Shown here in pieces: positions 1 through 58,261 of a stretch of DNA of 64,000 nt (positions are counted from its first letter, which is position 1; the number at the start of each line of letters is the position of its first letter). Below the pieces are notes generated by a model that was given only the letters and a program-made list of their open reading frames with translations, was not told where the DNA came from and ran no database searches. The position numbers and the translations under genes are program-made. Source of the DNA: Meghimatium bilineatum (taxonomy: Eukaryota; Mollusca; Gastropoda; Stylommatophora; Philomycidae); the NCBI GenBank assembly GCA_034231615.1, contig CM067298.1:34230127-34294126 (forward strand). Direction: 5' to 3'.

Positions 1-109
1 TTTAGAAGATATTTGTCAAACGCTTCCTAGATGAGAATGTACATTGTTAATTACTTTCTACGAGTAATATAAGTTCATGAGATTTGAATATAATGTTTCC
101 GCCGAAGAC

Positions 110-265
110 TGATGTGTCACGACATTGGCGCAAATAAAACGGCGACACAACGGATTTCCATTCTCTGGATTGCACCCTGCCAGAAATCAAGTAGAACCAT
201 GGTCATTTTACAAGAGAGATTTAGTGGGAGTTTGAGAGTGAATGCCAAAAAAGAAGAAGATTATA
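110..265 (+). mobile_element. Solo 3' fragment of retroposon family L
   Basis: The segment carries the same ordered landmarks as the 3' end of the long copy at 30429-31592: a gatgtg start, a GC-rich cggcgacacaac block, a variant of the tctggactacatcctg block, a stretch ending gagtttgagagtgaatg, and a GAA-rich tail. No protein is encoded. It is best read as a 5'-truncated insertion. No target-site duplication was found. Confidence 0.6.
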
Positions 266-328
266 ATGTTGAGATCAGAAATTTAATTTGAATTAAAGTG
301 ATGTAGAAGAGTACAAAATTGTAGACAC

Positions 329-540
329 GATGACATGTAGAGAATGTTACTGGAGGGGATGATAGTCGGCAATTAAGACAAAGGCCACCCGAGACGCCGT
401 TGGACAAAATACATTCAAGAATGCATGTGCAACTCACTAAAAGAGGCGGAACAAATTGCTCAAGACCGCGGAGAATTCAAGAGGTCCATAGGGAAGACTA
501 CATTCTGAAATGAATATGTCACCTGATGATGATGATCAGA
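329..540 (+). mobile_element. LINE remnant: C-terminal tail of a reverse-transcriptase ORF
   Basis: One frame reads MLLEGMIVGN, then GHPRRRWTKYIQECM, then LKEAEQIAQDRGEFK, and a stop. This is the GRPRRRW...I...AE..A.DR..W pattern that closes many non-LTR retrotransposon ORF2 proteins downstream of the RT thumb. Two in-frame stops (after DDM and after IVGN) show it is dead. The copy ends in a short TGA-rich tail (cctgatgatgatgatcag) that recurs at 24557-24574, so this is probably the element's 3' end. The catalytic RT is absent because of 5' truncation. Confidence 0.65.
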
Positions 541-1537
541 ACCGTAGATATGACTTCAATAGAGATGGGTATTGTGCATCTCTACGAAAGAAATATTAAC
601 TACGCACTTCAATTTAATGTGATTTATGATGTTGTTTTTAAAGAATAAGTGTTTAGAGGATTGGTTAGGGTGCGTTACTGTCGTTATTCTTGTTTTTCAG
701 TGATAAAAATCATGTAATAATTTTCTTTACACAACAATTGGGGGTGGGGGAATATTATCGCTATAACCGACCCTCATGTCTACGGGCTTGGTTTAAATCA
801 CCATTTCCGATTACCAATCTAACGCAATCTTCACTCATGTTTTTGATAAATGGCACATCCTCTATTAAAATCCGCGGATACGGGGGATGATATACCAAAA
901 TAGCGTGTAAACCCCCAAATTTTCACTGCATTTTCTTTCCATACCAGGTCCCCAATTTCTCATGACAACCAAAGATTTCCCGACAAGAAGAAAAAACAAT
1001 TTTTTATAGCTTTTTTATTCCCCCTCCTCCCCAAAATTGCTTTTGAAATACGTACTTACTGCCATGTACCTCTCTGAACTCCACAGACTCCGCAGAAACA
1101 TTTATTTGACCACTAACCGTTCTCCAATAACTCGCGCGAGTCAGGTAAACATTTACAACCCTCTAATTTAACATTCCAACCCAATGCGATCAATACACGT
1201 CTCTTATCACTACAGAACTATCGATCTATCTTCCAAACGACGTCACAACAGTACATACTGAGGAAAGATATAGGATTCAAGAAGACAGGAACTATTAGTC
1301 TGTCATTACATCATATAATATACATCAAATTGTCATTCCACTGGTATTGGATACAGATTATTTCTAGTGTAGGTAACCAAAATTGTGTATTAGCAGCTCC
1401 GGCAGTGCAAACCTCCGGCTCCAAAAATATGGAAGGAACTGTACTCTCATCTTATTTGATGCAGGTCTCTCTTTGTCATCCCTTTTTTTAGCTATTTAAT
1501 TATTTCCTAAATATTAACAAACATAATTACAACTAGA
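541..1537. other. Unassigned sequence, no gene seen
   Basis: Unique-looking AT-rich DNA with homopolymer runs (for example near 960-1030). The small open frames here have no recognisable domain and no start context I would defend. Confidence 0.5.
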
Positions 1538-2670
1538 AGCAGTTGTTGTTCACCCATCACAAGTGATGATGTTGAGCTGCTCCGTTGTTGAGCTGCTCCG
1601 TTGTTGAGCTGCTGCATTTCTCCTCTTTTCACATGATGCAACTTCATTTTTTGTACTATAGAGACCCATATATATATATATATATATATAGTAGCTGTAT
1701 TTTGTATTTTGTGCAAGTTCTTCCCATGCATCTTGAACTATTTCAAATTCTTTCAGTGGGTTCTAACAAGTCCTTGTGGACTTCTTTTGACCACCTTGAA
1801 AGATTATGCCCTTCTGCAACTCATCATAGAGAAACATTTCTGGCAGACGATGATCTGGGAAACGTTCAACTTGACCTGCCTAAAAAATCTGTGTCAACAA
1901 ATCATAATAGTTTCAGTACAAGTGATGCCAGGTCTGTCCAAGTTCTTGCATCCAGAATCGTGTTTTGCCATTTGATGTTGATAATTTTTTTAGACATGTT
2001 GTATGATAGTGATGGAGCTTCCTCATATGTCGTCTATACACAGTCCATGTTTCACCAGCATATATCAACATTGGAAGCGCCACTGCTCTGTAAACTTTCA
2101 GCTAAGTATGTAGGTTAATGCACCGTTTATGTCGAACTTTTACGTGCGATCTGCCGAAAGTGCTGCTTGCCTTGGCGATTCCTACATACAATTTACCATC
2201 AACAGTTACATTTTTTTAATTATATGTTACATGTGTATGTGACTCTATCCACAGTGCATCGCCATTTACCTTAATGCAGGTCTCATTATAGATTTTGCCA
2301 GGTGGTGGTTGTAACATGACTCCAGTTTTCTCCGTATTCATAGCAAGCCCACATTTGGTACAGGCTTTAGGGAATATATATAATAATTTGTAGATCAGCC
2401 TCAGAGTTCGCACTTAGAGGACACAGTTATCATTAAATATTAGATCTTTGATAATATGGAATATGACTTTAGTTTTTGCTTGAAGTGGCCGAAGGTTGAA
2501 TAATGTTCCACCAATGCGATATTTGACGTCTACTGCTAAGTTCAGATCTGTAAAAGCATCATCCAACATAACAGAGTACATGATGATAAACATTGTAGGT
2601 ATGAATACACGTACTTGTTTACATCCCTTTGAGAACGGAGAAGCTGCAGATAACTTTAAAATAAACATTA
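1538..2670 (-). mobile_element. Decayed copy of LINE family Z (RT plus 3' end)
   Basis: Read on the minus strand, the segment matches the better copy at 56990-58260. The peptide around 2414-2670 (VMLDDAFTDLNLAVD, then GTLFNLRPLQAKTK) parallels LDDAFRDLDLGVN and GKLFNLRWHREKK of that copy. The catalytic LADDCAL box has become FNDNCVL, so RT activity is lost. Further down, NTEKTGVMLQPPPGKIY matches NTEKTEVMLQPVLGKIY. About 150 bases are deleted between the glutamine-rich C-terminus (near 1600) and the 3' hairpin at 1555-1568, removing the C2H2 finger. A short TA microsatellite sits at 1671-1690. Confidence 0.8.
1555..1568 (-). other. 3'-terminal LINE hairpin
   Basis: On the minus strand the sequence is CATCAC-TT-GTGATG, a perfect 6 bp stem with a TT loop, followed by GGTGAACAACAA. 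The same hairpin and following motif end the copy at 58239-58252. A structural equivalent with different stem bases ends copy Y at 54567-54580. A role in reverse-transcriptase recognition of the RNA 3' end is an inference. Confidence 0.6.
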
Positions 2671-3093
2671 AACAGTAGCACAGTAACACTGCTGTGATTG
2701 ACATGCTATGGATATGTGCGCTGAGATCAACCATACATAATGAAACTAAACTAAACTTCGCTATAACATGTAAGGGGCATTCCATACATTACATCAACAA
2801 TTAGGGGCGAGGGGGTCTGAGAACAAGCGATGCAGTTGTTAACAGTCGATTTAAAAAAATAATTTATTGTTTGCTCTGTGCCCCTCGCAGAATATGCAAC
2901 CGTGCACCTCTCACTAATCAAAGAAATTGGCAGATTATTTTTCGTCTGCTTTTCGGCAGACACTGATAATTGGCCAGATCATAGATGAACGTTGTCTGTT
3001 TCGATTGCGTGCTTTGATTCACAGATGACGTATTTGTCTTGGCCAAAATCAAAAATGTCATATTATTTTATTGGTGGGGGGGGGGAGGTCTAT
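2671..3093. other. Unassigned sequence
   Basis: AT-rich, with G-runs near 2801-2815 and 3076-3087. I see no gene and no repeat that matches elsewhere in the window. Confidence 0.45.
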
Positions 3094-3430
3094 CAGGGAT
3101 TCTCAAAGTTAGGGTCCGTAGACATGTGCCGGTTTGCGAGCCATCAGTGGAATTCCATATATATTTCGTATAAGACCTTTGATCTTCAGCAGTTGGTTGT
3201 CTGAAAAACTCGAAGGTCCTGGTGTCTGGGTTACCATAACCGCGTCAGTAACTATTATCTGATGATTGTAAATTTCTGATATAATCAACCTGGACTAACA
3301 TTCGTGGTTGAAAGCAGCGTATCGCACCAGAAGTGGTCCATTTTACTAAACCAATCCAACCCATGCTGGCCCCTAGTAGATTTGAATACAAAATACCGGT
3401 CCGCGGAAGTAAAATGTTTAAGAAACAATG
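3094..3430. mobile_element. Possible hAT-like MITE
   Basis: The left edge reads CAGGGATTCTCAAAG. The reverse complement of the right edge reads CATTGTTTCTTAAAC. Both resemble the CAGnGnTTCnCAAA termini of hAT non-autonomous elements, and the interior has no ORF. No 8 bp target duplication is visible, so the assignment is weak. Confidence 0.3.
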
Positions 3431-3450
3431 TAGTATATAATGCGTTAACG

Positions 3451-3730
3451 TCTTCTTCTTCTTCTGCGTTAGTTCTCAAACTCCTGCAGATAGCAGGATG
3501 TAGTCCGGAGACCGGAATGCGTTGTGTCATGGTTTACAGCATTGCTGTGATATCTGCGCCTTTCGGCCTGACACATACGACTTCAGCATGGCTTTCGGTC
3601 GCTGACCCTATATGGGATGGGACAGCCAACTCCATCCCATAACCTCCTTAGTGACCTTTTACGACATGCGTGGAAGATAAACAGTGTTGCTATTCTTTGC
3701 TCCCCTTTCGGGCCCTTGCAACACACGGGC
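3451..3730 (-). mobile_element. SINE A copy, full length
   Basis: On the minus strand the copy starts in a GC-rich block (gggcccgaaaggggagcaaa), passes a palindrome built on tatgggatggga, the gaaaggcgcagatatcacag block and the ggactacatcctgct block, and ends in (GAA)n at 3451-3463. It matches the copies at 5203-5486 and 39277-39552 almost throughout. It is non-coding and no tRNA-like head was seen. Confidence 0.8.
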
Positions 3731-4150
3731 GAATGTGTATAGTATACTTAAACGAATGAATAGATACAGTACATTACAATAACGAACCTACTCGTGATCT
3801 CTACATCGTCATGTGTTTGATAGGTATAGGACCAGGTGGATGTGATGAATCGAGCAATAATAAGCCTACTTCAGATTTCTATATTGTCATGTTCTTGTAG
3901 GAGCAGGTGAATGTGTTGAATCTTGAAATTCATTAATCCTGAATGATAATTGATCGAATACTGTCATATTTTTGCTATCTATATTAAAACTTTAAAATAA
4001 TAATTATCTGTTGTCCTCTGTCTCCTTTCCCGGTTGAATTTGCTGTTTATCATAGTGTTTTCTTAAAAATGAACTAGTGTACGTTTGTATTCCTGATACT
4101 GTGTATGAATTTTCAATGTGCGTTGACCTCTTTAATCTTTTCACATTACT
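3731..4150. other. Unassigned sequence
   Basis: AT-rich sequence with a loose internal similarity (ctactcgtgatctctacat near 3788 and ctacttcagatttctatat near 3866), suggesting an old duplication of about 80 bp. No gene is seen. Confidence 0.4.
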
Positions 4151-4510
4151 AGTATTAAAATAGTTCTTGTAATAATTTAATATTAAATATAGTATTAAAA
4201 TAGTTCTTGTAATAATTTAATATTAAATATAGTATTAAAATAGTTCTTGTAATAATTTAATATTAAATATAGTATTAAAATAGTTCTTGTAATTATTTAA
4301 TATTAAATATAGTATTAATATAGTTCTTGTAATAATTTAATATTAAATATAGTATTAAAATAGTTCTTGTAATAATTTAATATTAAATATAGTATTAAAA
4401 TAGTTCTTGTAATAATTTAATATTAAATATAGTATTAAAATAGTTCTTGTAATAATTTAATATTAAATATAGTATTAAAATAGTTCTTGTAATAATTTAA
4501 TATTAAATAT
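4151..4510. repeat. Minisatellite, 9 x 40 bp
   Basis: Nine head-to-tail copies of a 40 bp AT-rich unit beginning agtattaaaatagttcttg. Only two substitutions are visible in 360 bases (near 4294 and 4319), so the array is recently homogenised. Its right edge touches the degenerate SINE A copy that follows. Confidence 0.95.
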
Positions 4511-4793
4511 AGCCTTTGTGTTGCCAGACTCGAAAGGGAAACAAACAATAGCAATATTGTTATCTGTCAAACATATCGTGAGCGACGATTAAAGAGGTTC
4601 TGATGTGAAGTTGGCTGTACCTATCCATAGAGGGTTATAGTACATAGATCCATCTAGAAGTCAGATATGTCACGCCGAAAAGCGCAGATATAGCAACTAA
4701 GCTGTAAACTATAACACAAAGCAATATGTTCTCGGGATTATATCCTGCTAACCTCCAGAAATTTGAAAATGAACAACGAAGAAGAAAAACGTA
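4511..4793 (+). mobile_element. SINE A copy, diverged
   Basis: Follows the SINE A order: a gactcgaaagggaaac block, the gtgagcgacgattaaagagg block, a gccgaaaagcgcagatat block, a variant of the actacatcctgcta block, then a GAA-rich tail at 4779-4791. It is more mutated than its neighbours and has lost the central palindrome. It starts exactly where the 40 bp array ends. Confidence 0.7.
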
Positions 4794-5202: not shown

Positions 5203-5486
5203 GCCAATGTGTCGCCGGGGCCCGAAAGGGGAGCAAAGAATAGAAACACTGTTTACCTTCCACGCATGTCGTAAAAGTAGACTAAAGAGGTTATGGGATG
5301 GGAGTTGGCTGTCCCATCCCATATAGTGTCAGTGACCCACAGCCATGCTGAAGTCGGATATGTCAGTCGAAAGGCGCAGATATCGCAGCAATGCCGTAAA
5401 CCATGACACAACGCATTCCGTTCTCCGGACTACATCCTGCTAATCTGCAGGAGTTTGAGAGCGAATGCAGAAGAAGAAGAAGAAAG
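5203..5486 (+). mobile_element. SINE A copy, well preserved
   Basis: The best plus-strand copy. A GC-rich head (ggggcccgaaaggggagcaa) is followed by a perfect 12 bp stem with an 8 base loop (tatgggatggga at 5292-5303, partner 5312-5323). Next come the gtcgaaaggcgcagatatcg block and the ggactacatcctgctaatc block, and the copy ends in (GAA)n. A possible 8 bp duplication (agaaagtg at 5191-5198 and 5481-5488) partly overlaps the tail and is weak evidence. Confidence 0.85.
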
Positions 5487-6124: not shown

Positions 6125-6830
6125 GATAAAACAAAATTAATTTTCTTGTCTTTGAACAATAAGGCTCTGAACGTGGATTTGTAATGAAGAAAAACTAAAT
6201 GTCTTGTCTTTGACCAATAAGGCTCTGAACGTGGATTTGTAATGAAGCAAAACTAAATGTCTTGTCTTTGACCAATAAGGCTCAGAACGTGGATTTGTAA
6301 TGAAGCAAAACTAAATGTCTTGTCTTTGACCAATAAGGCTCTGAAAGTGGATTTGTAATGAAGCAAAATGTAATGTCTTGTCTTTGACCAATAAGGCTCT
6401 GAACGTGGATTTGTAATGATACAAAACTAAATGTCTTGTCTTTGACCAATAAGGCTGTGAACGTGGATTTGTAATGAAGCAAAACTAAATGTCTTGTCTT
6501 TGACCAATCAGGCACTGAACGTCAGTTCATGATGAAACAACACAACATGTCATGTCTTTGATAAATTACCCACTGAACGTCAGTTTTGAGGAAACAAAGA
6601 TACTTATCTTTGATCAATCAGGCACTAAACGTCAGCTCTTGAGGAAACAACCCTACTTGTCTTTGATCAATCAGGCACTAAACGTCAGCTCTTGGGGAGT
6701 CAAAACTACTTATCTTGTCTTTGGCCAATCATGTACTGAATATCAGTTCATAATAAAACGCAACTACTTGTCTTCGATCCAGCACTCATTAAGCGTATGC
6801 TCTTTATGAAACACAGCCTAATGAAGGTAA
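6125..6830. repeat. Minisatellite, 58 bp unit, about 12 copies
   Basis: The unit is built around cttgtctttgaccaataagg, then ctgaacgtggatttgtaatg. The 58 bp period was measured at 6181, 6239 and 6297. Copies up to about 6510 are close to identical; those from 6510 to 6830 are progressively diverged (cagttcatgatgaaac variants), so the array shows an age gradient. Minus-strand open frames through it are by-products of the repeat. Confidence 0.9.
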
Positions 6831-7815: not shown

Positions 7816-7915
7816 TGCTTCATTAAAACGCATTACTCACGTACTTAACTGTGCGCAATATTGATATTTGAAATATATAATTCGAAGTTAGGATAGGAGC
7901 ATGACAGGGATGCGT

Positions 7916-9017
7916 TGTTTGTTTGTTTGTTTGTTTAGCGTTCCCTCCATTGTAATCAGCACGGATATTCGTGCTATTTCCGCCGGAAATGTGGTTACTT
8001 TGTGCCATCGTTATGCGCCGTTTAGGTCTAGCACATTCTATTTTGGCATACCTTGACATTTCGGGTGCACTACCCTAACCTGTGACAGGCTTCCTATCTG
8101 TCGCCAGGCAGCTTATGTGTATTGACTCTACGCTGAGGCGATGTATCCTTCGCCTCTGTCTTACACGAAGTGTTCCGCCGCCAGTGCACTTGTCTTGTGT
8201 AATTAGACGCGTTGTGCTTGTGCCCATTGGGTTCTGAATCTTTTCTCATCCTCGTTCCTGGTTCCGGTTTAGGAAGAACTCAACAGAAGAGTTGGACTCG
8301 GACTCGTACGCCCTCTTAGCCGAAGCGTTGCTCACCACTGTCGTGAACCACTCGCCCAAGTCCGAGTCTCTATAATTTAGGAGCGTTAGGGACTTGCGTT
8401 AGGTTCTCGAGCTGAACAGTGATTGTCACCTTGGACGCCTATGCCCATCGGGTACTGAACCTTTCCTGTGAGCATGCTTCCGGTATAGGAAAACTCGACA
8501 GTAGAGTTGGGCCCAGGCTAGGATCACCGGTAACCATAAGTTTGTCTCGAGCAAACAACACTTTAGTTCCGATTTCCTTTAATTGTTTTTAGTTCTCTTT
8601 GCACATGACGCTACCCTGTAGCGCTGTGTTGTCCTCTCATTGTACTCATTGCGCTATTAATATAGTGTCTGATGCACCAATTCTTTACATTTCTCTTATC
8701 GTTTTCCCGCTTTATAGAAACTGCATTGTCCGCCCCTCCATTGTTTCTGCCGAACTGACTAGTTTCACTGTGTGTCGACAGTGCTGCTGCATGTGTTGGC
8801 GCCGAGGTGTCGGAGATATTGACTTTCTTTTAGCAGTCACATATCTTTCCATCTGCTAGCTCCACATTCACGTACACGATCCACTAATGATTTAGCCAGA
8901 ATCAGCACGAGCCGCTGTATTTATGTTTCCAGAGTGCACCGCGAGGAGGTACATTTGGGATCTTGGTTACCTGTTAACCCTAGATCCGCCGAGAGCAGAG
9001 CGTTCCCTTTCCACCCC
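7916..9017 (-). mobile_element. Retroposon family L, copy 1 (1,102 bp)
   Basis: Flanked by a 12 bp near-perfect target-site duplication (acagggatgcgt at 7904-7915, acagggatgtgt at 9018-9029; 11/12 match). Element 5' end is at 9017. The copy ends at 7916 in a tail that reads (AAAC)n on the minus strand. Internally it shares with the other copies two imperfect units containing ggttcagtaccc-type sequence (near 8220-8300 and 8440-8520), and a 5' region with a gtgcaccctggaaaca-type block. No frame is conserved between copies, so it appears non-coding. Confidence 0.85.
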
Positions 9018-9029
9018 ACAGGGATGTGT

Positions 9030-9702
9030 GATATCATTTCCTCTCTACAACACTTAATGAACTTGGTGATAGGTAGAGCACCTAATGATAGAAAAGTTAT
9101 TGTTGAAATATCTATGAACTTTTGAAAATTACTGATGACGTGGACGTTTCATTTTGACACGAATACTTATTTGTAAATATCTTCAGAGTGCAGTCCTATT
9201 GCAGGACTATTGATCAGTTAGAAGAAACGGGATGGTTACATGTGAATGTGACAAAGAGGACATTATATTAGAAAACCATACAATAAGTTCAAGCTTGACT
9301 ATAAATTCACTCTTATTCATATAACCATTACCTTATATATTAAAATAAATAAAATGCTTACTCTATTTGTGCAATATCTACATTTAGTAAACAGTCTACG
9401 GTATAGAGACAGTGGAATTACATTTTGTGTTTGAATCCCTGATCATGAATTTATTCCAGGAAATGAGCTAGAATCGGCTAAAAAAATTGAATGTTACGGA
9501 TATTAGTTTAAATTAAATAGCGGCTTCTGAAACTACATGCCTCGTAATGAAAGACACAAATCGGAATTGACAGGTAAGTTTAAAATTGAAATAGGTATAA
9601 ATGTTAACAAAGGATTAATAATATATGTTTAAAATATATGAAATAACTATAGACTTATATCAGAATCTATCTAATTACAAATGCATGTATTATTGCTTTT
9701 TC
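9030..9702. other. Unassigned sequence
   Basis: AT-rich unique sequence. No repeat or domain is recognised. Confidence 0.45.
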
Positions 9703-9850
9703 TTCAGTGGTTCATTCGCAAACTCCCGCTGGATCGTTTTTGTGGCAGGACTGTCATCATACTAGGTTTCCAGCAGGATGTAGTCCGAGAATGTAAATGC
9801 GTTGTGTTGCCTTTTTATTTGTGATAATGACCAGACACATTCGTCTTCGC
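9703..9850 (-). mobile_element. Solo 3' fragment of retroposon family L
   Basis: Minus-strand landmarks are aacgcatttacattctcgg, then actacatcctgctgg, then a run into an Ala/Asn-type cgaatgaac end. The same blocks close the copy at 30429-31592. It sits just upstream of a SINE A copy in the same orientation. Confidence 0.5.
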
Positions 9851-9884
9851 CAGATGTATTCTTAGGTTATGGTTAGATCAATTT

Positions 9885-10140: not shown

Positions 10141-10183
10141 ACATGAAAACAATAAATATGTTTATATTGCAATCAATAGCACT

Positions 10184-10650
10184 TATCATGTCTCGGAACA
10201 TAGTACCACATCTCACAACAAGAGACACATATCACGTATCGGAACATAGTACCACATCTCACAACAAGAGACACATATCACGTCTCGGAACATAGTACCA
10301 CATCTCACAACAAGAGACACATATCACGTATCGGAACATAGTACCACATCTCACAACAAGAGACACATATCACGTCTCGGAACATAGTACCACATCTAAC
10401 AACAACAAACCCATATCACGTCTGGGAACATAGTACCACATTTCCCAACAAGAGATACATATAACGTCTCGGAACATAGTACCACATCTCACAACAAGAG
10501 AAAAATTTCACGTCTCAGAACATAGTACCACATCTCACAACAAGAGAAACATATCAAGTTTCGGAATGTAGTGCCACATAGAAAACAAGAGAAACATATC
10601 ACGTCTCAGCATGTAGTACCACATCTCACACAAAGAGAAACATATCACGG
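10184..10650. repeat. Minisatellite, 46 bp unit, about 10 copies
   Basis: The unit contains cggaacatagtaccacatct followed by cacaacaagagacacatatc. The first five copies alternate between cacgtctcgg and cacgtatcgg variants, pointing to a higher-order 92 bp repeat. Later copies are diverged. Confidence 0.92.
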
Positions 10651-17293: not shown

Positions 17294-18452
17294 TTTCTCT
17301 TCTTCTGCGTTCGCTCTCTTATAATCACAACGAATAAATTGTGTGATTTCCTCTGGGGAGCGCGAAGTACTGAAGTGCATTTACTGCTAGTTACAAAGTA
17401 GAACTGTGCTATTTACACTTATGCCGACTCACTATGTCGCCTGGACATCCAAGGTCCAGTACATCATTTTTCATAATACCTTTATTCGGGTAAATGGCTT
17501 TCCTAGTCTGTGACAGCCTGCGTATATGCCGACAGGCGGCGGGTGTGTATTTGACTCTTCACCGAGACGGTTGTCGTTCAGATCTAGCTCGCACGAGGCG
17601 TTTCATGGCCTCGTGTAATTAGACGTACAGTACCTGTGCCAATCGAGTACTTCACCTTTTCTGTCTTCGAGCTTGGTTTAGGAAGAACTCGATTGAAGAG
17701 TTGGACCCGGTCTCTTTTGCCTTCTTAGCCAAGGTGTTATTAACCGACATCGTGAACCCCTCATTCAAATCTGAGTCTCACCCTGCGTTTTGGAGCACTG
17801 GGGACTTAAAGCGTGTTCTCCAGCTAAACAACTTTGTCCCATATGTGCTTCAGCCTATCGGGTACTGAACTCTTTCTCCCCGCGAGCATGTTTCCGGTAT
17901 AGAACACAAATTCGACAGTGGAGTTGGGCCGTCTGTCTTCTTGGCCGAGAGCCCACGATTGGGTCTCTGCCCGTAAGGAGAACCTGTAACTAGACGTTTG
18001 TGTCAAGCCGACATAACTTTTAGTTTCGGTTTCCTTAAAACGTTGTCCCTGTCTATTTCCGTATCGCTCTGACCTCCGGCGTTATGCTGCCCTCTCTTTG
18101 TACTCAGTATGTTATCTTTCGATTCTCTCTATGCATCTGGCTGTTCGTATCGTATTGACCACCCACCGATTGCTCGGACCTGGCTGTTTTGAGCCACTGT
18201 GTATCGACAATGACATTGTATGTGTTGGCATAGAGTTGTCGGAGATATTGCTTGTATATGTAATCTAATCTCATTGCGTCTGCTGCTTTCATAATCTCTT
18301 AACACGATCTAAAATGTGTTCGCCAGATATAATATAGCACGAGCCGCGTACTTCTGTTTCCAGGGTGCACCACGAGAAGGTACTTGTGGGATCTTGGTTA
18401 TCTGCAAACCCTGGATCCGCCGAGAATGGTGTGGTACTCTTTGCATCCCGGA
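17294..18452 (-). mobile_element. Retroposon family L, copy 2 (1,159 bp), nested in a LINE
   Basis: Inserted in a family Z LINE: gtagatgg at 17286-17293 and agatga at 18453-18458 flank it, and the LINE reading continues across. The element's 3' end (left edge) keeps a gagagcgaacgcagaagaag-type tail shared with SINE A. The two internal units lie near 17637-17715 and 17848-17935. The 5' end is at 18452 after a caaagagtaccac block. No conserved ORF. The target-site duplication is short and mutated (agatg, 5 exact bases). Confidence 0.8.
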
Positions 18453-22440: not shown

Positions 22441-22713
22441 AGCAAAAGAGGAATTTAATAAAGTTGTAGCTATTAATAGTATCAGATGTAGTGTTTGGAA
22501 TAAGTGATATTATCATTATCAAATGTAGTAGATGAAGTTAGTAATCGTATCAATATCAGATGTAGTGGTTGTAGTTCGTAATAATAATGTTTTGTATCAG
22601 ATATGGTGATTGTGTTTAGTAATATTATCAGTATTCGATGTGGTGGCTGTAGTTAGTAATAGTATCAGCCTCAGAGATAGTTGTTATATTTATTATTAGT
22701 ATAAGTACAAGTG
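22441..22713. repeat. Degenerate TAG/TAT-rich sequence
   Basis: Old relatives of the array to its right are visible (atggtgattgtgtttagtaa, then tggctgtagttagtaat), so the 30 bp array once extended further left. Confidence 0.55.
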
Positions 22714-23083
22714 TGATGGTTGTGGTAGTAATGTTACTGTTCGTGATGGTTGTGGTAGTAATGTTACTGTTCGTGATGATTGTGGTAGTAATGTTACTGT
22801 TCGTGATGGTTGTGGTAGTAATGTTACTGTTCGTGATGGTTGTGGTAGTAATGTTACTGTTCGTGATGGTTGTGGTAGTAATGTTACTGTTCGTGATGGT
22901 TGTGGTAGTAATGTTACTGTTTGTGATGATTGTGATAGTAATGTTACTGTTCGTGATAGTTATGGTAGTAATGTTACTATTCGTAATGATTGTGGTAGTA
23001 ATGTTAATGTTCGTGATGATTGTGGTAGTAATGTTACTGTTCGTGATGGTTGTGGAAGTAAAGTTACTGTTCGTGATGGTTGT
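22714..23083. repeat. Minisatellite, 30 bp unit, about 12-13 copies
   Basis: The unit is tgatggttgtggtagtaatg plus ttactgttcg, with nearly identical central copies. Because 30 is divisible by three, all frames stay open and give a decapeptide repeat on the plus strand and an Asn/Thr-rich one on the minus strand. No start context, domain or flanking coding sequence supports a gene. Confidence 0.95.
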
Positions 23084-23090
23084 TAGCAAG

Positions 23091-23589
23091 AAATAAAATA
23101 CTGTAGCGCGCATGATGAAAATTCATAGTTAATGAATATAGTTCTCAAAAAGGTGGATCAATTCTGTCTATTCTCATTCAGCCCCAACACGGTGCATAGG
23201 ACAGACACAAGAGCTCTCCAGTTCGAGCGATGTAATGCTATTGTGTGTAATTCTTGAATTTTGTTGAGACCCATAGTCATACCCAATTAAAGTATCAGAG
23301 AACAACTATAATATCCGAAGACGTTCAGCAGAAATAAGAAACAGAAAAGTGCAGACAAAAGCAAAATCCCTAAAACTTAAAACTCTACTGTGTACTATGT
23401 CCCTAACATTACAGGCCATGAAGAACGTTCTTCATAGATACATAACTCACTATGGCATACATGTATGTCGAGTCTTGAAAAATAAATAAACGTGATAATG
23501 GAAAAGTATAGGCAACAGCCATATGGTTCTATAGAAGAATGTTGAGAGTTTCATGGACTGCTAGAAATACTAATGTGCGTGTTCTAAGA
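23091..23589. other. Unassigned sequence
   Basis: No supported feature. Confidence 0.4.
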
Positions 23590-24350
23590 GAGTCACATGT
23601 AAGATGGGGTTTCTGATAGAGCCAAATGTCAGATGGGGGTTCTGATAGAGTCAAAAGCAAGATGGGGGTTCTGATAGAGCCAAATGTAAGATGGGGGTTC
23701 TGATAGAGTCAAAAGCAAGATGGGGGTTCTGATAGAGCCAAATGTAAGATGGGGGTTCTGATAGAGCCAAATGTAAGATGGGGGTTCTGATAGAGCCAAA
23801 TGTAAGATGGGGGTTCTGATAGAGCCAAATGTAAGATGGGGGTTCTGATAGAGCCAAATGCAAGATGGGGGTTCTGATAGAGCCAAATGTAAGATGGGGG
23901 TTCTGATAGAGTCAAAAGCAAGATGGGGGTTCTGATAGAGCCAAATGTAAGATGGGGGTTCTGATAGAGCCAAATGTAAGTTGGGGGTTCTGATAGAGTC
24001 AAAAGCAAGATGGGGGTTCTGATTGTCAAAAGCAAGATGGGGGTTCTGATAGAGTCAAATGTAAGATGGGGGTTCTATAAGTCAAAAGCAAGATGGGGGT
24101 TCTGATAGAGTCAAATGTAAGATGGGGGTTCTGATAGAGCCAAATGTAAGATGGGGGTTCTGATAGAGTCAAATGTAAGATGGGGGTTCTGATTGTCAAA
24201 AGCAAGATGGGGGTTCTGATAGAGTCAAATGTAAGATGGGGGTTCTGATAGAGCCAAATGTAAGATGGGGGTTCTGATAGAGCCAAATGTAAGATGGGGG
24301 TTCTGATAGAGTCAAAAGCAAGATGGGGGTTCTGATAGAGCCAAATGCAT
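23590..24350. repeat. Minisatellite, 29 bp unit, about 26 copies
   Basis: The unit is gatgggggttctgatagagc plus caaatgtaa. A second version has gtcaaaagcaa at its end, and the two are interspersed irregularly. Near 24020-24100 and 24190 the unit is shortened to tctgattgtcaaaagc. The 29 bp period breaks the frame each unit, so the overlapping minus-strand frames cycle through three readings and are not genes. Confidence 0.95.
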
Positions 24351-30095: not shown

Positions 30096-30350
30096 TCTTC
30101 TGTGTTCGCCCGAATATATTCATCATGAATTTCCTGCCATGAGGAATTTTCTGCCAGGGGCGTGAATTATGTTGTGCTACTGCTCAATTCGCACCATGTA
30201 GGCCTAGCACATCCGATTTCGGCATTCTTTTAAATCGGGGCGTTTCTTTAGACTGTGACGTCCTTCATATCTGTCTCAAGACAACGAGCGTGTATCAACT
30301 CTAAGGAATAACATTTATCTAGCTTGGACACACTCTTATTTGTCATAATT
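30096..30350 (-). mobile_element. Family L fragment (3' part)
   Basis: In plus reading, ccatgtaggcctagcacatc, then atttcggcattc, then tcatatctgtctcaaga match the 3' third of copy 4 near 32870-32960, in the same orientation. The 5' two thirds are missing. Confidence 0.65.
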
Positions 30351-30428
30351 TACATAAATTAACATGATAATATAGTAATGAATACATACTGCACTATATA
30401 ACAAAAGTGTGTTTTAATTTGAGATGTT

Positions 30429-31592
30429 GGGGTGCAAATGGTCTCGCATTGCTCTTGTGTAATCCCAGGGTTAGCAGATAACCAAGATCTTAAAAGTACC
30501 TCCTCGCGGTGCACCCTGGAAACAGAGTAATAGCTGCTTTTGTTGTATTCCTGGCCAACAAGTTTAGGCTTGTGTCCGTGGATGTGAAGGCTAAAGACGG
30601 AATTATTATTGACTACAAAGACAAGCAATGTCTACGACACTTCTGTGCCAATACACACAGCGCATTGTCGACACGAGCAAGACAGTGCTGCTGGAGCATT
30701 AGAGGGCTGGTCAATGCAATTCTCATGAAATGGGTAGATATTAAGATCCTTAGTGAGTCGAAAATATAACATATTGAGTACAATGAGAGGAATCACAGCG
30801 ACAGAAGGAAGCGTCTTGTGTAAATAAAACGGAAAACGTTTCAAGGAAATCGGAACTAAACGTTCTGTTAGCTCGAGACATGTTTCTAATTACCGGTGCT
30901 GCTTACGAGTAGAATTCCAATCGTGGACGCTCGGCTAAGAAGGCAGTCCGGGTTCAACTCTGCTGTTAAGTTTTTCATAAACCGCAATTATGCTCGCGGA
31001 GAGAAAAATTTCAGTATCCGATGGGCACAGGCACAATAAGTCAAATGGGACAAGATTGTTACGCTCGAGAACGAGCTTATAGTTCCCGGTGCTCATAAAT
31101 GTGAGTTGAGACTTGGACAAAGGGTTCACGATGTCGGTGAGTGTCACATCGGATAAGAAGGCGAACAAGCCCTGGTCCAACTATTATATCAAGTTCTTCT
31201 TAAACCGGAACCAGGCTCGTGAATGAGAAAAGGTTCAGTACTCCATGGGCAAGTGCACAATGCTTATAATTATACGGGATAAGTTCACTGACTGAGGAAC
31301 ACCTGGTGCACGATAAACGTGAACAACAACCGTCTCAACGTTGAGTAAATACATATTCGTCGCCTGGCGACAGATATGAAGGCTGTCACAGGCTAGTGAA
31401 GCTCACCCAAATTAAAGGCACGACAAATACGGATGTGCCGAGCCACTGCCGCAAATTAAAACAGCGGCACAGCGCATGTCCGTTTTCTGGACTACATCCT
31501 GTGGAAATCTAGCAGGCCCATCGTTCTTCAACAAGCGAGATTAAGTGGGAATGTGAGAATTAACGCAAACAAGCAAGAAACAACAAAAAATA
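30429..31592 (+). mobile_element. Retroposon family L, copy 3 (1,164 bp), sense orientation
   Basis: Flanked by a perfect 8 bp duplication, gagatgtt at 30421-30428 and 31593-31600. Starts ggggtgcaaatgg and continues with a ggttagcagataacc hairpin, then gtgcaccctggaaacagag. Two internal units lie near 30940-31045 and 31155-31260. The 3' end shares a tctggactacatcctg block with SINE A and ends in an A-rich tail (gcaagaaacaacaaaaaa). Its last about 150 bases differ from those of copies 1 and 4, which end in (AAAC)n, so there are at least two 3' subtypes. No conserved ORF. Confidence 0.88.
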
Positions 31593-31714
31593 GAGATGTT
31601 CATGACAGAAATAGCAGCTGGAAAAACAAGAGAACATATTAACAGTAAGAGAAGAAAATTGTTTCATATCACCTTCTGGTACTTTGTACTTTACAGTCTA
31701 AATCATTTTCATGG

Positions 31715-31935
31715 ATGGTAGTCTACGCGGCGGCTAGTAAGCAAGGATTCGACTTGGATCGACAGGGTATATCTCGTCTGATCTGTTCCACTGCCAGTGA
31801 ACTTGTCTTCCGTATTTAGACGTTCATTTTCCCAATAGTCCTTGGGTACTAAATCTCTCCTCATCTGTGAATTAGTTCCTGTATAGGAAACCCTTAACAA
31901 TAAATTTGGACTAGAGTTTATTCGACCGTTGTTAT
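31715..31935 (-). mobile_element. Family L fragment (central part)
   Basis: Contains ttccactgccagtgaacttg, then gtatttagacgt, then ccttgggtactaaatctc, then gttcctgtataggaaaccc, matching the 3' region and one internal unit of copies 1 and 4. Truncated at both ends. Confidence 0.65.
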
Positions 31936-32740: not shown

Positions 32741-32777
32741 TCAGAGGTCTTTTATTTCAGACGGTTATGCTTCAAGT

Positions 32778-34112
32778 TTGTTTGTTTGTTTTGCGTTTGC
32801 TCCATTGTAACCATCACGAGTGTCCGTGCGATTTCCGCCGGGAGCGTGATTACGTTGTGCCACCGTTATGCGCCTTGTAGCTCTAGCACATCCGATTTCG
32901 GCATGCCTTGACAATTCGGGTGGGCTACCCTTAGGCTGTGACAGCCTCTATATTTGTCTCCAGGCACGCGTAGTGGCGACTCTTCGCCCAGACGATTTTT
33001 GCTCTCGTCTGACTCGCACGAGGTGTTCCACTGTCTATGAGCTTGCTTCGTGTAATTGGACGTGCTGTGCCTATGCCCATTGGGTACTGAACCGTTTCTC
33101 ATCCGTGAGCCTGGTTCCTTAAGGGGAAGAACTCAACAGAGGAGTTGGGCCCTGGCTCTTTCGCCCTCTTAGCCGAGGTGTCATTCACCGACATCGTGTA
33201 CCCCTTGTCCAAGTTAGAGTCTCACACCACGCGTTTGAGAGCAAGGTGTTCTCGAGCTGATCGTCCTTGTCCCATTAGCGCCTGAGCCCATTAGGTACTG
33301 AACCCTTTCTCTCTTCAAGTGTATTTCCGGTGTAGGAAATACCTGACAGTAGAGTTGGGCCAGGGCTAAATCGTTGTCCATTTTGTGCCTGACCCCATCG
33401 GGTACGGAACCCTTTCTCTCTGCAAGTGTACTTCCGGTATAGGAAACCTTGACAGTAGAGTTGGACCAGAACTACCATCGTTGTCCCTTTCTTGCCTACG
33501 CCTATCGGGTACAGAACCCTTTCTCTTCGCGGGCATATTTCCGGTTTAGGAATGCTCGACATTAGAGTTGGATTAGGTCTTCTTGCTTTACCAATCGCCA
33601 ATGAATGGGTCTGGGTCTCTGCCTGTAAGGAACTCAGGTAACTAGATGCTCGTCTCGAGCTGACTGAGCTTGTAGTTCCCCTTTCCTAGCGACTTTTCAA
33701 TTTCTATTTGCAGTTCGCGCTGCCCTCTAGCACTGTTCTGCCCTTTCATTGTTTCATTGTACTCGGTATGATATATATTTGTCTCTCGCCGTGCATCTAC
33801 CTTTACGTGCATTTTACATTGGCCGCCCCTCCAATGTTTCGACTGGACTGACTAGCTTCACTGTATGTCGACAGTGTCGCTATATTTGTTGATGCTGGTG
33901 GTGTCGGAGATATTGTCTGTCTCTTGTGCAGTCAAATCTCTTTCCATCTGCTACCTCCACATTCTCGGACACGATCCCCAAATGATTTGGCCAGAATCAG
34001 CTCGAACTGCTGTATTTCTGTTTCCAGGGTGCACCGCGTGGAGGTACATTTGGGATCTTGGTTATCTGCTAACCCTGGGTCCGCCTAGAGCAATGCGTTC
34101 CCTTTGCACCCC
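32778..34112 (-). mobile_element. Retroposon family L, copy 4 (1,335 bp)
   Basis: Flanked by a perfect 11 bp duplication, atgcttcaagt at 32767-32777 and 34113-34123. The 5' end (34112) starts ggggtgcaaagggaacgc. The 3' end at 32778 carries a tail that reads (AAAC)n. Four internal units (33070-33160, 33275-33365, 33380-33470, 33490-33580; spacing about 106 bp) each contain a gggttcagtaccc-like palindrome and an accggaaa-type block. The other copies have two, which accounts for the extra length. The variant units are diverged from each other. No conserved ORF. Confidence 0.9.
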
Positions 34113-34123
34113 ATGCTTCAAGT

Positions 34124-39276: not shown

Positions 39277-39552
39277 GCTTCTTCTTCTTCGTTCGTTCTC
39301 AAATTCCTGCAGATTAGCAGGATGTAGTCAGGAGAATGGAATGCATTGTGTCATGTTTTACAGAATTGCTGCGATATCTGCGCCTTTCGGCCTGACACAT
39401 CCGACTTCAGCATGGCTCTGGATCACTGACCCTATATGGGATGGGACAGCCAACTCCATCCCATAACCTTAGTCGCCTTTTACGACATGCGTGGAAGGTA
39501 AACAGTGTTGCTATTCTTTGCTCCTCTTTCAGGCCCCGGCAACACACGGGCG
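39277..39552 (-). mobile_element. SINE A copy with 13 bp target-site duplication
   Basis: Perfect duplication gcgtaattaaact at 39264-39276 and 39553-39565 defines the element as 276 bp. On the minus strand it starts in cgcccgtgtgttgccggggc (the first bases may be flank), has the tatgggatgg...ccatcccata palindrome, the gccgaaaggcgcagatatcg block, the ctacatcctgctaatctgca block, and ends in (GAA)n. It is the reference copy for the family. The head shows no clear tRNA, 5S or 7SL similarity. Confidence 0.92.

Positions 39553-54460: not shown

Positions 54461-54525
<65 letters not shown>
54458..54525. repeat. (ATT)n microsatellite
   Basis: About 21 ATT units within the 3' UTR of LINE copy Y, between the stop codon and the terminal hairpin. 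Confidence 0.95.
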
Positions 54526-54526
<1 letters not shown>

Positions 54527-54566
54527 TCATCGTATTTAATGGGTTTTTTTTTCATGCCATGCTCAT

Positions 54567-56989: not shown

Positions 56990-56995
56990 TGACGT

Positions 56996-58201
56996 TTGGA
57001 AGGCTTTTCTTGTTTAGTTCAGGATGATGGAGAGTTATCTGAAACCTTTCCTGTCTCAAATGGAGTAAAACAAGGATGTGTATTAGCACCTACCCTATTT
57101 AGCATCATGTTCTCTGCTATGTTGGATGATGCTTTCAGAGATCTAGACCTGGGAGTAAACATCACCTACCGCATAGACGGAAAATTGTTCAACCTTCGGT
57201 GGCATCGAGAAAAAAAAGTTAAATCACACACAATCAGGGATTTTCTATTAGCTGATGACTGTGCCCTAAATTCCAACTCTGGGGCTGATCTACAATGTAT
57301 TATAGACATATTCTCCAAAGCCTGTACCAACTTCTGGCTTACCATTAACACAGAGAAAACAGAAGTCATGTTACAACCAGTACTTGGCAAAATCTATCTC
57401 GAGCCCTGCATAAAGGTAAATGGTGTAGCACTGAAAGTTGTGAATAGATTCACATATCTAGGCAGTACGTTATCACAAAATGCCAACGTTGATGATGAAG
57501 TGTATACAAGGATCGCCAAAGCAAGCAGTACTTTCGGCAGATTGTACGCAAATGTTTGGCGTAGAAATGGCATTAACCCACAGACTAAGCTGAAAGTTTA
57601 CAGAGCAGTGGTACTTCCAGTGCTGCTATACGCTAGTGAAACATGGACTGTGTATAGACGTCATGTGAAAAAACTCAATCATTTTCATACAAATTGTCTC
57701 AGAAAAGTTATGAACATCAGATGGCAAGACAAGATTCCAGATACCACTGTCCTTGATAGAGCTGGTATCCCAAGCATTGACACGATCCTGATGCAGACAC
57801 AGATTCGTTGGGCAGGTCATTTGGTGCGTATGCCAGACCATCGTCTGCCAAAGATAAATCTCTAATGTGAGCTAGAGAAGGGTATACGATCTCAAGGTGG
57901 TCAAAGGAAGCGTTACAAGGACTCGTTAAAGGACTCACTGAAAGCCTTTGAAATAGACCACGATACATGGGAAGAACTTGCACAAAATAGATCTACATGG
58001 CGTTCTAAAATAAAAAAGAGCGCATCATCTTGTGAAAAGAAGAGAAATGCAGCAGCTCAACAGCGGAGAGCAGCTAGAAAGTCACGGATAGACCAAGATC
58101 CGTCTACAGTCGTTATTCCATGTCCAAACTGTCCAAGGACATTTACAGCTCGAATAGGGCTCATTAGCCATCTACGAACTCATAATCAAGGACATAACTA
58201 A
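56996..58201 (+). pseudogene. LINE Z reverse transcriptase C-terminal half with C2H2 finger
   Basis: 402 codons with one in-frame stop (TAA at 57863, after LPKINL). Order: FPVSNGVKQGCVLAPTLFS (RT motif B region), IRDFLLADDCALNS (motif C, both Asp present), RFTYLGSTLSQNANVDDEVY, KVYRAVVLPVLLYASETWTV (thumb), IRWAGHLVRMPDHRLPK, GGQRKRYKDSLKDSLKAFE, the Trp-containing NRSTWRSKIKKS, a basic AAQQRRAARKSR segment, and CPNCPRTFTARIGLISHLRT with its final His. The finger is C-X2-C-X12-H-X3-H (codons 58121, 58130, 58169, 58181). The N-terminal endonuclease and RT motif A are missing. Annotated from the first in-frame ATG only for convenience; the element has no start of its own. Confidence 0.9.
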
Positions 58202-58238
58202 AATTTAATTTTCAAAAGTGGATGTAGCAAATGGTCAT

Positions 58239-58252
58239 CATCACTTGTGATG
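58239..58252 (+). other. 3'-terminal LINE hairpin of copy Z
   Basis: CATCAC-TT-GTGATG followed by GACGAACAAC. Identical stem at 1555-1568 (minus), compensated stem at 54567-54580, decayed version at 41568-41580. Confidence 0.65.
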
Positions 58253-58261
58253 GACGAACAA

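Follow-up and report, generated by a model that had tools for sequence, protein, structure and literature searches.

A dispersed non-coding retroposon family of Meghimatium bilineatum with a predicted HDV-like ribozyme at its 5′ end

We analyzed a 64,000-nucleotide stretch of contig CM067298.1 from the gastropod Meghimatium bilineatum (positions 34,230,127 to 34,294,126; hereafter the window), which carries four copies of a repeat that we call family L. The copies are 1.1-1.3 kb long, collinear and sharp-ended, as judged by BLAST within the window and by alignment, and are 67-74% identical to one another. A profile made from the four copies recovers all of them at an E value of about 0, as it must by construction, together with two partial L copies; two other profile pieces, 100-257 (plus) and 9852-9722 (minus), turned out to belong to a related short family, S. 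A previous reading of these letters without database searches (the sequence-only reading) had described four collinear copies of about 1.1 kb with short simple tails, and both features are borne out, the tails being (CAAA)n-like and lying at the 3′ end. Its coordinates stand for three copies; the start of the second had to be moved from 18452 to 18449. The L copies and pieces are:

7916-9017, minus sense: L1, full-length copy; its predicted ribozyme runs from 9017 downwards
17294-18449, minus sense: L2, full-length copy within an old copy of a long interspersed element (LINE); predicted ribozyme from 18449 downwards
30429-31592, plus sense: L3, full-length non-coding retroposon copy
32778-34112, minus sense: L4, full-length copy with extra internal repeats of about 107 bp; belongs to a recent subfamily
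30096-30303, minus: 5′-truncated L copy, profile match
31769-31926, minus: internal L fragment, profile match

The unit of about 107 bp is duplicated inside the body of the element (33280-33572 in L4), and each of the four window copies has two modules like it. It has been amplified in the L4 subfamily, where its number varies among recent copies.

Short target-site duplications of variable length are present, as expected of LINE-mobilised retroposons lacking long terminal repeats (LTRs):

9018-9029 and 7904-7915: target-site duplication of L1, 11/12
30421-30428, plus: 5′ target-site duplication of L3, GAGATGTT, second copy at 31593-31600, 8/8
34113-34123, minus: 5′ target-site duplication of L4, ACTTGAAGCAT, second copy at 32767-32777, 11/11

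The flanks of L2 align to adjoining segments of the LINE copy at 56993-58260, with six of its bases common to both flanks. This empty site indicates a short imperfect duplication, CATCT(T/A)C (6/7), and hence the true start at 18449.

We searched the host genome (1.61 Gb, 32 contigs), in which the haemocyanin family PF14830, a mark of molluscs, has 50 matches on two contigs, compared to none in 14 control genomes. The L3 copy as query gave 46 rows, with 40 of 12,291 candidates scored, and all but L3 itself were 71-81% identical. When the 166 bases at the 5′ end of L4 were used, 40/40 scored candidates (of 178) were 98-100% identical and started at base 1; these sequences indicate that a recent L subfamily exists in the host genome, with L4 as a member. 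Matches lie on many contigs. The 20 recent copies that we fetched all run on into the L body, are 0.9-1.33 kb long and have 25-base 5′ flanks that all differ by eye. Since they were picked by 5′ similarity, their 5′ conservation is no evidence, whereas the window copies were not so picked. Two further L copies were present in 134,749 bases of flanking DNA, one of them inside a locally repeated stretch, and our guess is that the genome-wide copy number is of the order of 10^4.

A duplication ending at the first base of the element (G1) and recurring after the tail was found in 19/20 fetched recent copies, compared to 9/380 swapped-flank controls, in a test that allowed mismatches and in which the match may lie partly in the A-rich tail. 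The sole recent copy lacking one is that of locus L039; at L024 the longest repeat lies 48 bases further on, its last 11 bases also recurring closer by. Because the duplications adjoin both ends, the element does not extend into a coding LINE or LTR element. The three duplications given by the sequence-only reading (11/12, 8/8 and 11/11) were confirmed, the duplications abutting 19/20 recent copies show that the ends are true ends, and its proposal of insertion by target-primed reverse transcription is supported by duplications and tails, including those of the host copies. Six near-identical L4-type 5′ ends lie within 61 kb of one host contig (G000 C7:69003870-69064725), and at locus L034 two L copies in the same orientation are 5.3 kb apart; both arrangements suggest that L has been caught up in local segmental or tandem repeats.

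We read family L as non-coding. The longest open frames of the four window copies (88, 85, 91 and 136 codons) fall under the 95% values of shuffled sequences (157, 145, 138 and 166), substitutions in the four-copy alignment are spread evenly across codon positions, and a Pfam search of 10 open stretches gave weak matches only, all below cut-off. We found no reverse transcriptase coding by any of these three approaches, and a protein-coding element was rejected. Recent copies do contain open frames (an 82-codon antisense ATG frame in 15/20, a sense ATG frame reaching 100 codons or more in 5/20), the longest of which are not the same from copy to copy, and we do not take them as genes; in a rough majority sequence of the four copies, some positions of which are undetermined, the longest open stretch is 153 codons, in antisense. 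Self-comparison at E≤1e-3 gave internal repeats only and no terminal direct repeats. These data are in keeping with the absence of a conserved frame, and with a non-coding element far above the size of a short interspersed element (SINE), as had been noticed from the sequence alone. A possible second conserved hairpin in the body (33687-33628 of L4, minus, and equivalents) has a z score of -5.9 against column shuffles. We do not claim it, because 64/500 pair shuffles equal its covariation.

The 5′ end of the element, the "ggggtgcaaa" end, had been put forward as a possible start for RNA polymerase III (Pol III) or II (Pol II). The end is genuine, but we read it instead as the predicted 5′ terminus of the RNA, which would also form the first strand of helix P1 of a self-cleaving ribozyme like that of hepatitis delta virus (HDV), so that the element would start at the predicted cleavage site. 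All four window copies have P1, P1.1, P2, P3, P4 and J4/2, with the nested double pseudoknot P1/P2/P3/P1.1/P4 in what we take, partly from established knowledge, to be the correct HDV order. The R2 ribozyme (PMC3774820) also served to recognize this arrangement. P1 (GGGGUGC/GCACCCU, first pair G.U) begins at the first base of the element in all four copies, and is followed by P3 (ACC/GGU) with a loop L3 like UCCUCGC, P1.1 (GG), the P4 hairpin and J4/2 (UGGCNAA). The predicted elements in the two window copies with a fully paired P1 are:

30429-30568, plus: ribozyme of copy L3; P1 30429-30435/30511-30517, P1.1 GG 30518-30519
30489-30496/30561-30568, plus: P2 of copy L3, 6/8 pairs
30498-30500/30508-30510, plus: P3 of copy L3; loop L3 30501-30507, J4/2 TGGCCAA 30552-30558
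33977-34112, minus: ribozyme of copy L4; G1 is 34112, P1 34112-34106/34032-34026
34054-34047/33984-33977, minus: P2 of copy L4
34045-34043/34035-34033, minus: P3 of copy L4; loop L3 34042-34036, J4/2 33993-33987

Copies L1 and L2 each have one P1 mismatch (pairs 7 and 4, respectively), and P2 is damaged in L2. Among the 50-column bins of the four-copy alignment, conservation is highest in the ribozyme core (0.88; next 0.76 and 0.75). Free folding of the first 87-89 nucleotides gives P1, P3 and a structured J1/2 in copies L4 (-26.8 kcal/mol) and L3 (-21.7 kcal/mol).

An Rfam scan of the whole window at the gathering threshold gave no match. At permissive settings there were 25 matches, mostly to low-complexity microRNA models, and the best ribozyme family was drz-agam-1 at 33977-34067 (minus; 24.3 bits, cut-off 37). 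This model reached E=0.0061 on a 241-base stretch of L4 and E=0.64, in a partial match, on the L3 copy. Inspection located the P1 strand missing from the match well upstream, where the element begins. Rfam aligns the L3/P3 core of the element (ACCUCC.CG.GGU) to drz-Agam-1 (RF01787), while the model omits the remote 5′ strand of P1. With scores under the gathering cut-off, we do not claim membership of RF01787. There was no hammerhead match in the window, and hammerhead and other Rfam families were set aside.

We then asked how often such an arrangement occurs by chance, using a descriptor of P1, P3, loop L3, GG, J4/2 and P2 that was tuned after seeing the window copies. With at least 6/7 P1 pairs it matches four window loci, all of them element 5′ ends, compared to 3 loci in 40 Markov shuffles; with 7/7 pairs it matches 2 window loci and none in the shuffles. 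In 290,824 bases, consisting of the window plus fetched host DNA and hence enriched in L, it finds 30 cores (26 at 7/7), of which 30/30 are at element 5′ ends and none elsewhere, covering 30/48 such ends. The matches include 21/21 starts in L021-L040 and 4/4 in the window. The core pattern had 0 matches in viral contigs and 0 in prokaryotic contigs.

Covariation was measured in 26 copies from at least three subfamilies by counting cells (one base pair of P1, P2 or P3 in one copy), the 3′ strand of P2 being positioned by motif search rather than alignment. The set leaves out copies lacking a 5′ end (L001, L006, L016), those with core deletions (L010, L014, L017, L020), 15/20 near-identical recent copies, the 5′-truncated L043 and L044, and L011 and L015. 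In total, 90.3% of 465 cells pair (shuffle mean 86.6%, 0/1000 as high; 50-58% with slid partners), and 23 cells are changed on both sides, compared to a shuffle mean of 8.7, a number reached by 0/1000 shuffles. With L011 and L015 added, 89.2% of 501 cells pair and 25 are double-changed (shuffle mean 8.5, 0/1000), in a count where P2 of L015 is misplaced. The compensatory changes are C-G/U-A at P2 pair 3, A-U/U-A at P2 pair 7 and A-U/G-C at P3 pair 1, and they set subfamilies apart: P2 exists as CCCAAAUG/CAUUUGGG, CCUAAAAG/CUUUUAGG or CCCAAAAG/CUUUUGGG, and P3 as ACC/GGU or GCC/GGC. The catalytic-type C of J4/2 is present in 25/26 copies, although its site was placed by best motif match, which favors the count.

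The last part of L3-type copies also exists as a stand-alone repeat of about 165 bp, without a recognised head, which is family S. It came to light through profile matches starting near one internal point of L (position 999 of 1173). A third family, V, measures roughly 280 bp and shares its 3′ module with L; its head is different and includes a palindromic region (GGGATGGAGTTGGCTGTCCCATCCC):

31430-31592, plus: 3′ module of the L3 copy, about 165 nt, common to S and V, A-rich tail at its end
98-259, plus: S element, duplication TATAATGTT read by eye
9696-9852, minus: S element copy
5348-5483, plus: 3′ part of a V element; further copies 3450-3586 (minus) and 39278-39410 (minus)

More S copies lie at host loci L022 (5228-5382), L040 (3197-3371) and L042 (905-1064), and several S copies have duplications of their own visible by eye. 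Locus L033 holds three V copies, and V duplications were seen by eye there and at L042. The shared module contains ...GAGTTTGAGAAYGAACGC before the tail. L copies have a (CAAA)n-like tail, S and V copies a (GAA)n tail; the module is more altered in L4- and L1-type copies. Among 46 matches to a 3′-module motif in the fetched DNA, 7 lie outside known S, V and L copies: 6 are V and one (L034) matches its own locus only. Eight of the 40 listed matches to the 3′ end were fetched and 8/8 are L copies, six with a 5′ end (one internally deleted, one in pieces) and two 5′-truncated. At L006 132-298 and L024 5052-5164, both minus, the module of L or S has expanded into small tandem arrays, about 40 bp.

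Common 3′ ends mark elements that use one LINE. From the shared module, the duplications and the tails we infer a mobilising LINE for family L. Two sets of candidates for this partner were rejected. LINEs of the window differ from L in their tails, as judged by eye: (ATT)n lies at 54461-54527, and LINE-B ends near 58240. A recent and abundant LINE, found at L049, L050 and L051 (about 296-3697 in the sense of L049; 99.7-99.9% identical over 3.1-3.4 kb), has one 1026-amino-acid endonuclease-reverse transcriptase frame, almost no 3′ untranslated region, a (GAT)n tail and a start without ribozyme.

Taken together, these data argue that family L is, very probably, a non-coding and non-autonomous retroposon that a LINE mobilises and that has an HDV-like self-cleaving ribozyme at its head. 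The simplest explanation of how it spreads combines host readthrough, ribozyme trimming and LINE insertion. An L copy in a transcribed region would be included by readthrough in a host transcript, which we propose because no Pol III promoter was found in L. The first ~140 nucleotides of the L RNA would fold as a nested double pseudoknot and cut just before G1, leaving RNA with an exact 5′ end; with a cut at the element start, a precise front end would not require the element to have its own promoter. A LINE reverse transcriptase could then take up the 3′ module of about 165 nucleotides with its A-rich tail, and insert the RNA by target-primed reverse transcription to give short duplications. 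PMC3414825 argues for the same three steps, readthrough, trimming and insertion, in the short internally deleted elements (SIDEs) derived from R2.

Several observations weigh against this reading. P1 is fully paired in just 11/26 copies, with defects in L1, L2 and most old copies; L1 and L2 show P1 and P3 only under constraint, their free folds being 3.8 and 3.7 kcal/mol lower. The Rfam scores (24.3, 16.3 and 29.1 bits) stay under the cut-off of 37, and a scan of 12 loci gave a match at E≤0.5 in only one. The descriptor misses 18/48 element starts, matching only 2/17 5′ ends in the old copies of L001-L020 and 3/6 in L041-L048. Three double-changed pairs are not unusual, being reached by 782/1000 shuffles (724/1000 with L011 and L015), and the double changes amount to about three subfamily-level events in related copies that are not independent. 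The absence of an A/B box weighs little, such a box occurring in only 15/500 shuffles. A LINE with the same tail was not found in the DNA looked at, and the abundant 1026-amino-acid LINE does not fit as partner.

The broken P1 pairs of many old copies could mean that L is an ordinary LINE-dependent retroposon with its own Pol II promoter. Its HDV-like fold would then have decayed or arisen by accident, and transcription would start at the exact 5′ end. A fixed start would also give full-length copies beginning at one base, but we consider this unlikely: the descriptor matches fall at element starts only (30/30), loop L3, P1.1, J4/2 and both P1 strands are all in HDV order, and P2 and P3 have changed in a compensatory manner between subfamilies. 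A long SINE transcribed by Pol III would account for the 3′ module common to L and short SINE-like families. This is most improbable given a length of 0.9-1.33 kb, internal TTTT in 17/20 recent copies, which argues against Pol III, a window without tRNA (ARAGORN) and 20/20 recent copies without an A/B box by a simple pattern, weak as that last point is (15/500 shuffles); a tRNA or Pol III origin was therefore rejected. That L is a piece of a coding LINE or LTR element can be practically dismissed. A dead frame could hide in old, diverged copies, and the frames of recent copies and of the majority sequence are there to be explained, but duplications adjoin both ends, there is no codon phase and no Pfam match above cut-off, frames vary between recent copies, and self-comparison gives internal repeats only.

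A further proposal bears on origin and is compatible with a ribozyme-headed, LINE-mobilised element: L could itself be a SIDE, internally deleted from a host LINE with the same ribozyme and 3′ end. Such an origin is reported, in PMC3414825 and PMC4035085, for R2 SIDEs and NARTc. We regard it as possible but somewhat doubtful for L. The 20/20 fetched 5′ matches (among 40 listed) continue as L body and the 8/8 fetched 3′ matches are L, both being small samples of the genome; the recent 1026-amino-acid LINE has different ends; and the short families that carry the 3′ module have unrelated heads, which fits a chimera equally.

Among the papers listed, the systems nearest to L are the R2 SIDEs and the trypanosomatid elements. 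R2 and R2/R1 hybrid SIDEs of Drosophila are described in PMC3414825 as non-coding, with a 5′ HDV-like ribozyme and target-primed reverse transcription, the hybrids coupling the ribozyme to the 3′ end of another element. L resembles them in lacking coding capacity, in its predicted 5′ HDV-like ribozyme and in a 3′ end suited to a LINE protein. However, SIDEs occupy the R2 or R1 site within rRNA genes, whereas L is dispersed over many sites with variable duplications, has a body of about 0.8 kb with internal repeats and shares its 3′ module with short families. The parent LINE of L was not found in the fetched host DNA, another difference from SIDEs, and membership of the R2 SIDEs was rejected, since L matches lie on many contigs with differing flanks rather than at the 28S R2/R1 site. 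In the NARTc/RIME/SIDER elements of trypanosomatids, as PMC4035085 describes them, a 77-nt hallmark has an additional role as internal promoter, and L1Tc/ingi is the known parent LINE; the lineage is not that of L, whose predicted ribozyme is about 140 nt with a long structured J1/2. L would work like R2 SIDEs and NARTc, yet is dispersed, long and SINE-tailed.

The structured J1/2 resembles the P1.2 'pinch' of drz-Agam-2-1, which pulls P1 and P2 together according to PMC4908430. The R2 ribozyme likewise makes the 5′ end of its element and has a J1/2 loop of variable size; R2 differs in being coding and 28S-specific and, in many species, in cutting upstream of the element (PMC3774820). Retrozymes share with L a non-autonomous nature and a self-cleaving ribozyme, but theirs are hammerheads and they spread via circular RNAs (PMC4918200). 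We found no dispersed mollusc family of this kind in the titles and abstract openings of the open-licence papers listed; an entry in a repeat library is possible.

We are evenly divided on a broader proposal, that L represents a chimeric class of retroposon, with an HDV-like ribozyme head and a SINE-type 3′ module, that needs neither promoter nor frame and has spread from host readthrough beyond rDNA across an animal genome, its ribozyme being preserved by compensatory change over several subfamilies until the recent past. Family L suggests how a kilobase-long non-coding RNA in which no promoter was found may multiply, with exact 5′ ends, in the genome of an animal, and would widen the range of non-autonomous elements with a ribozyme head from rRNA genes and trypanosomes to a mollusc family that is dispersed. 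New retroposon families may be founded in a modular way, when a ribozyme head is linked to a common 3′ module, and the many natural variants of the predicted ribozyme, recent and old, could be used to test rules relating sequence to activity.

Elsewhere, the window contains minisatellite arrays with units of 29-58 bp, at 4150-4512, 6132-6561, 10180-10649, 22713-23083 and 23581-24347.
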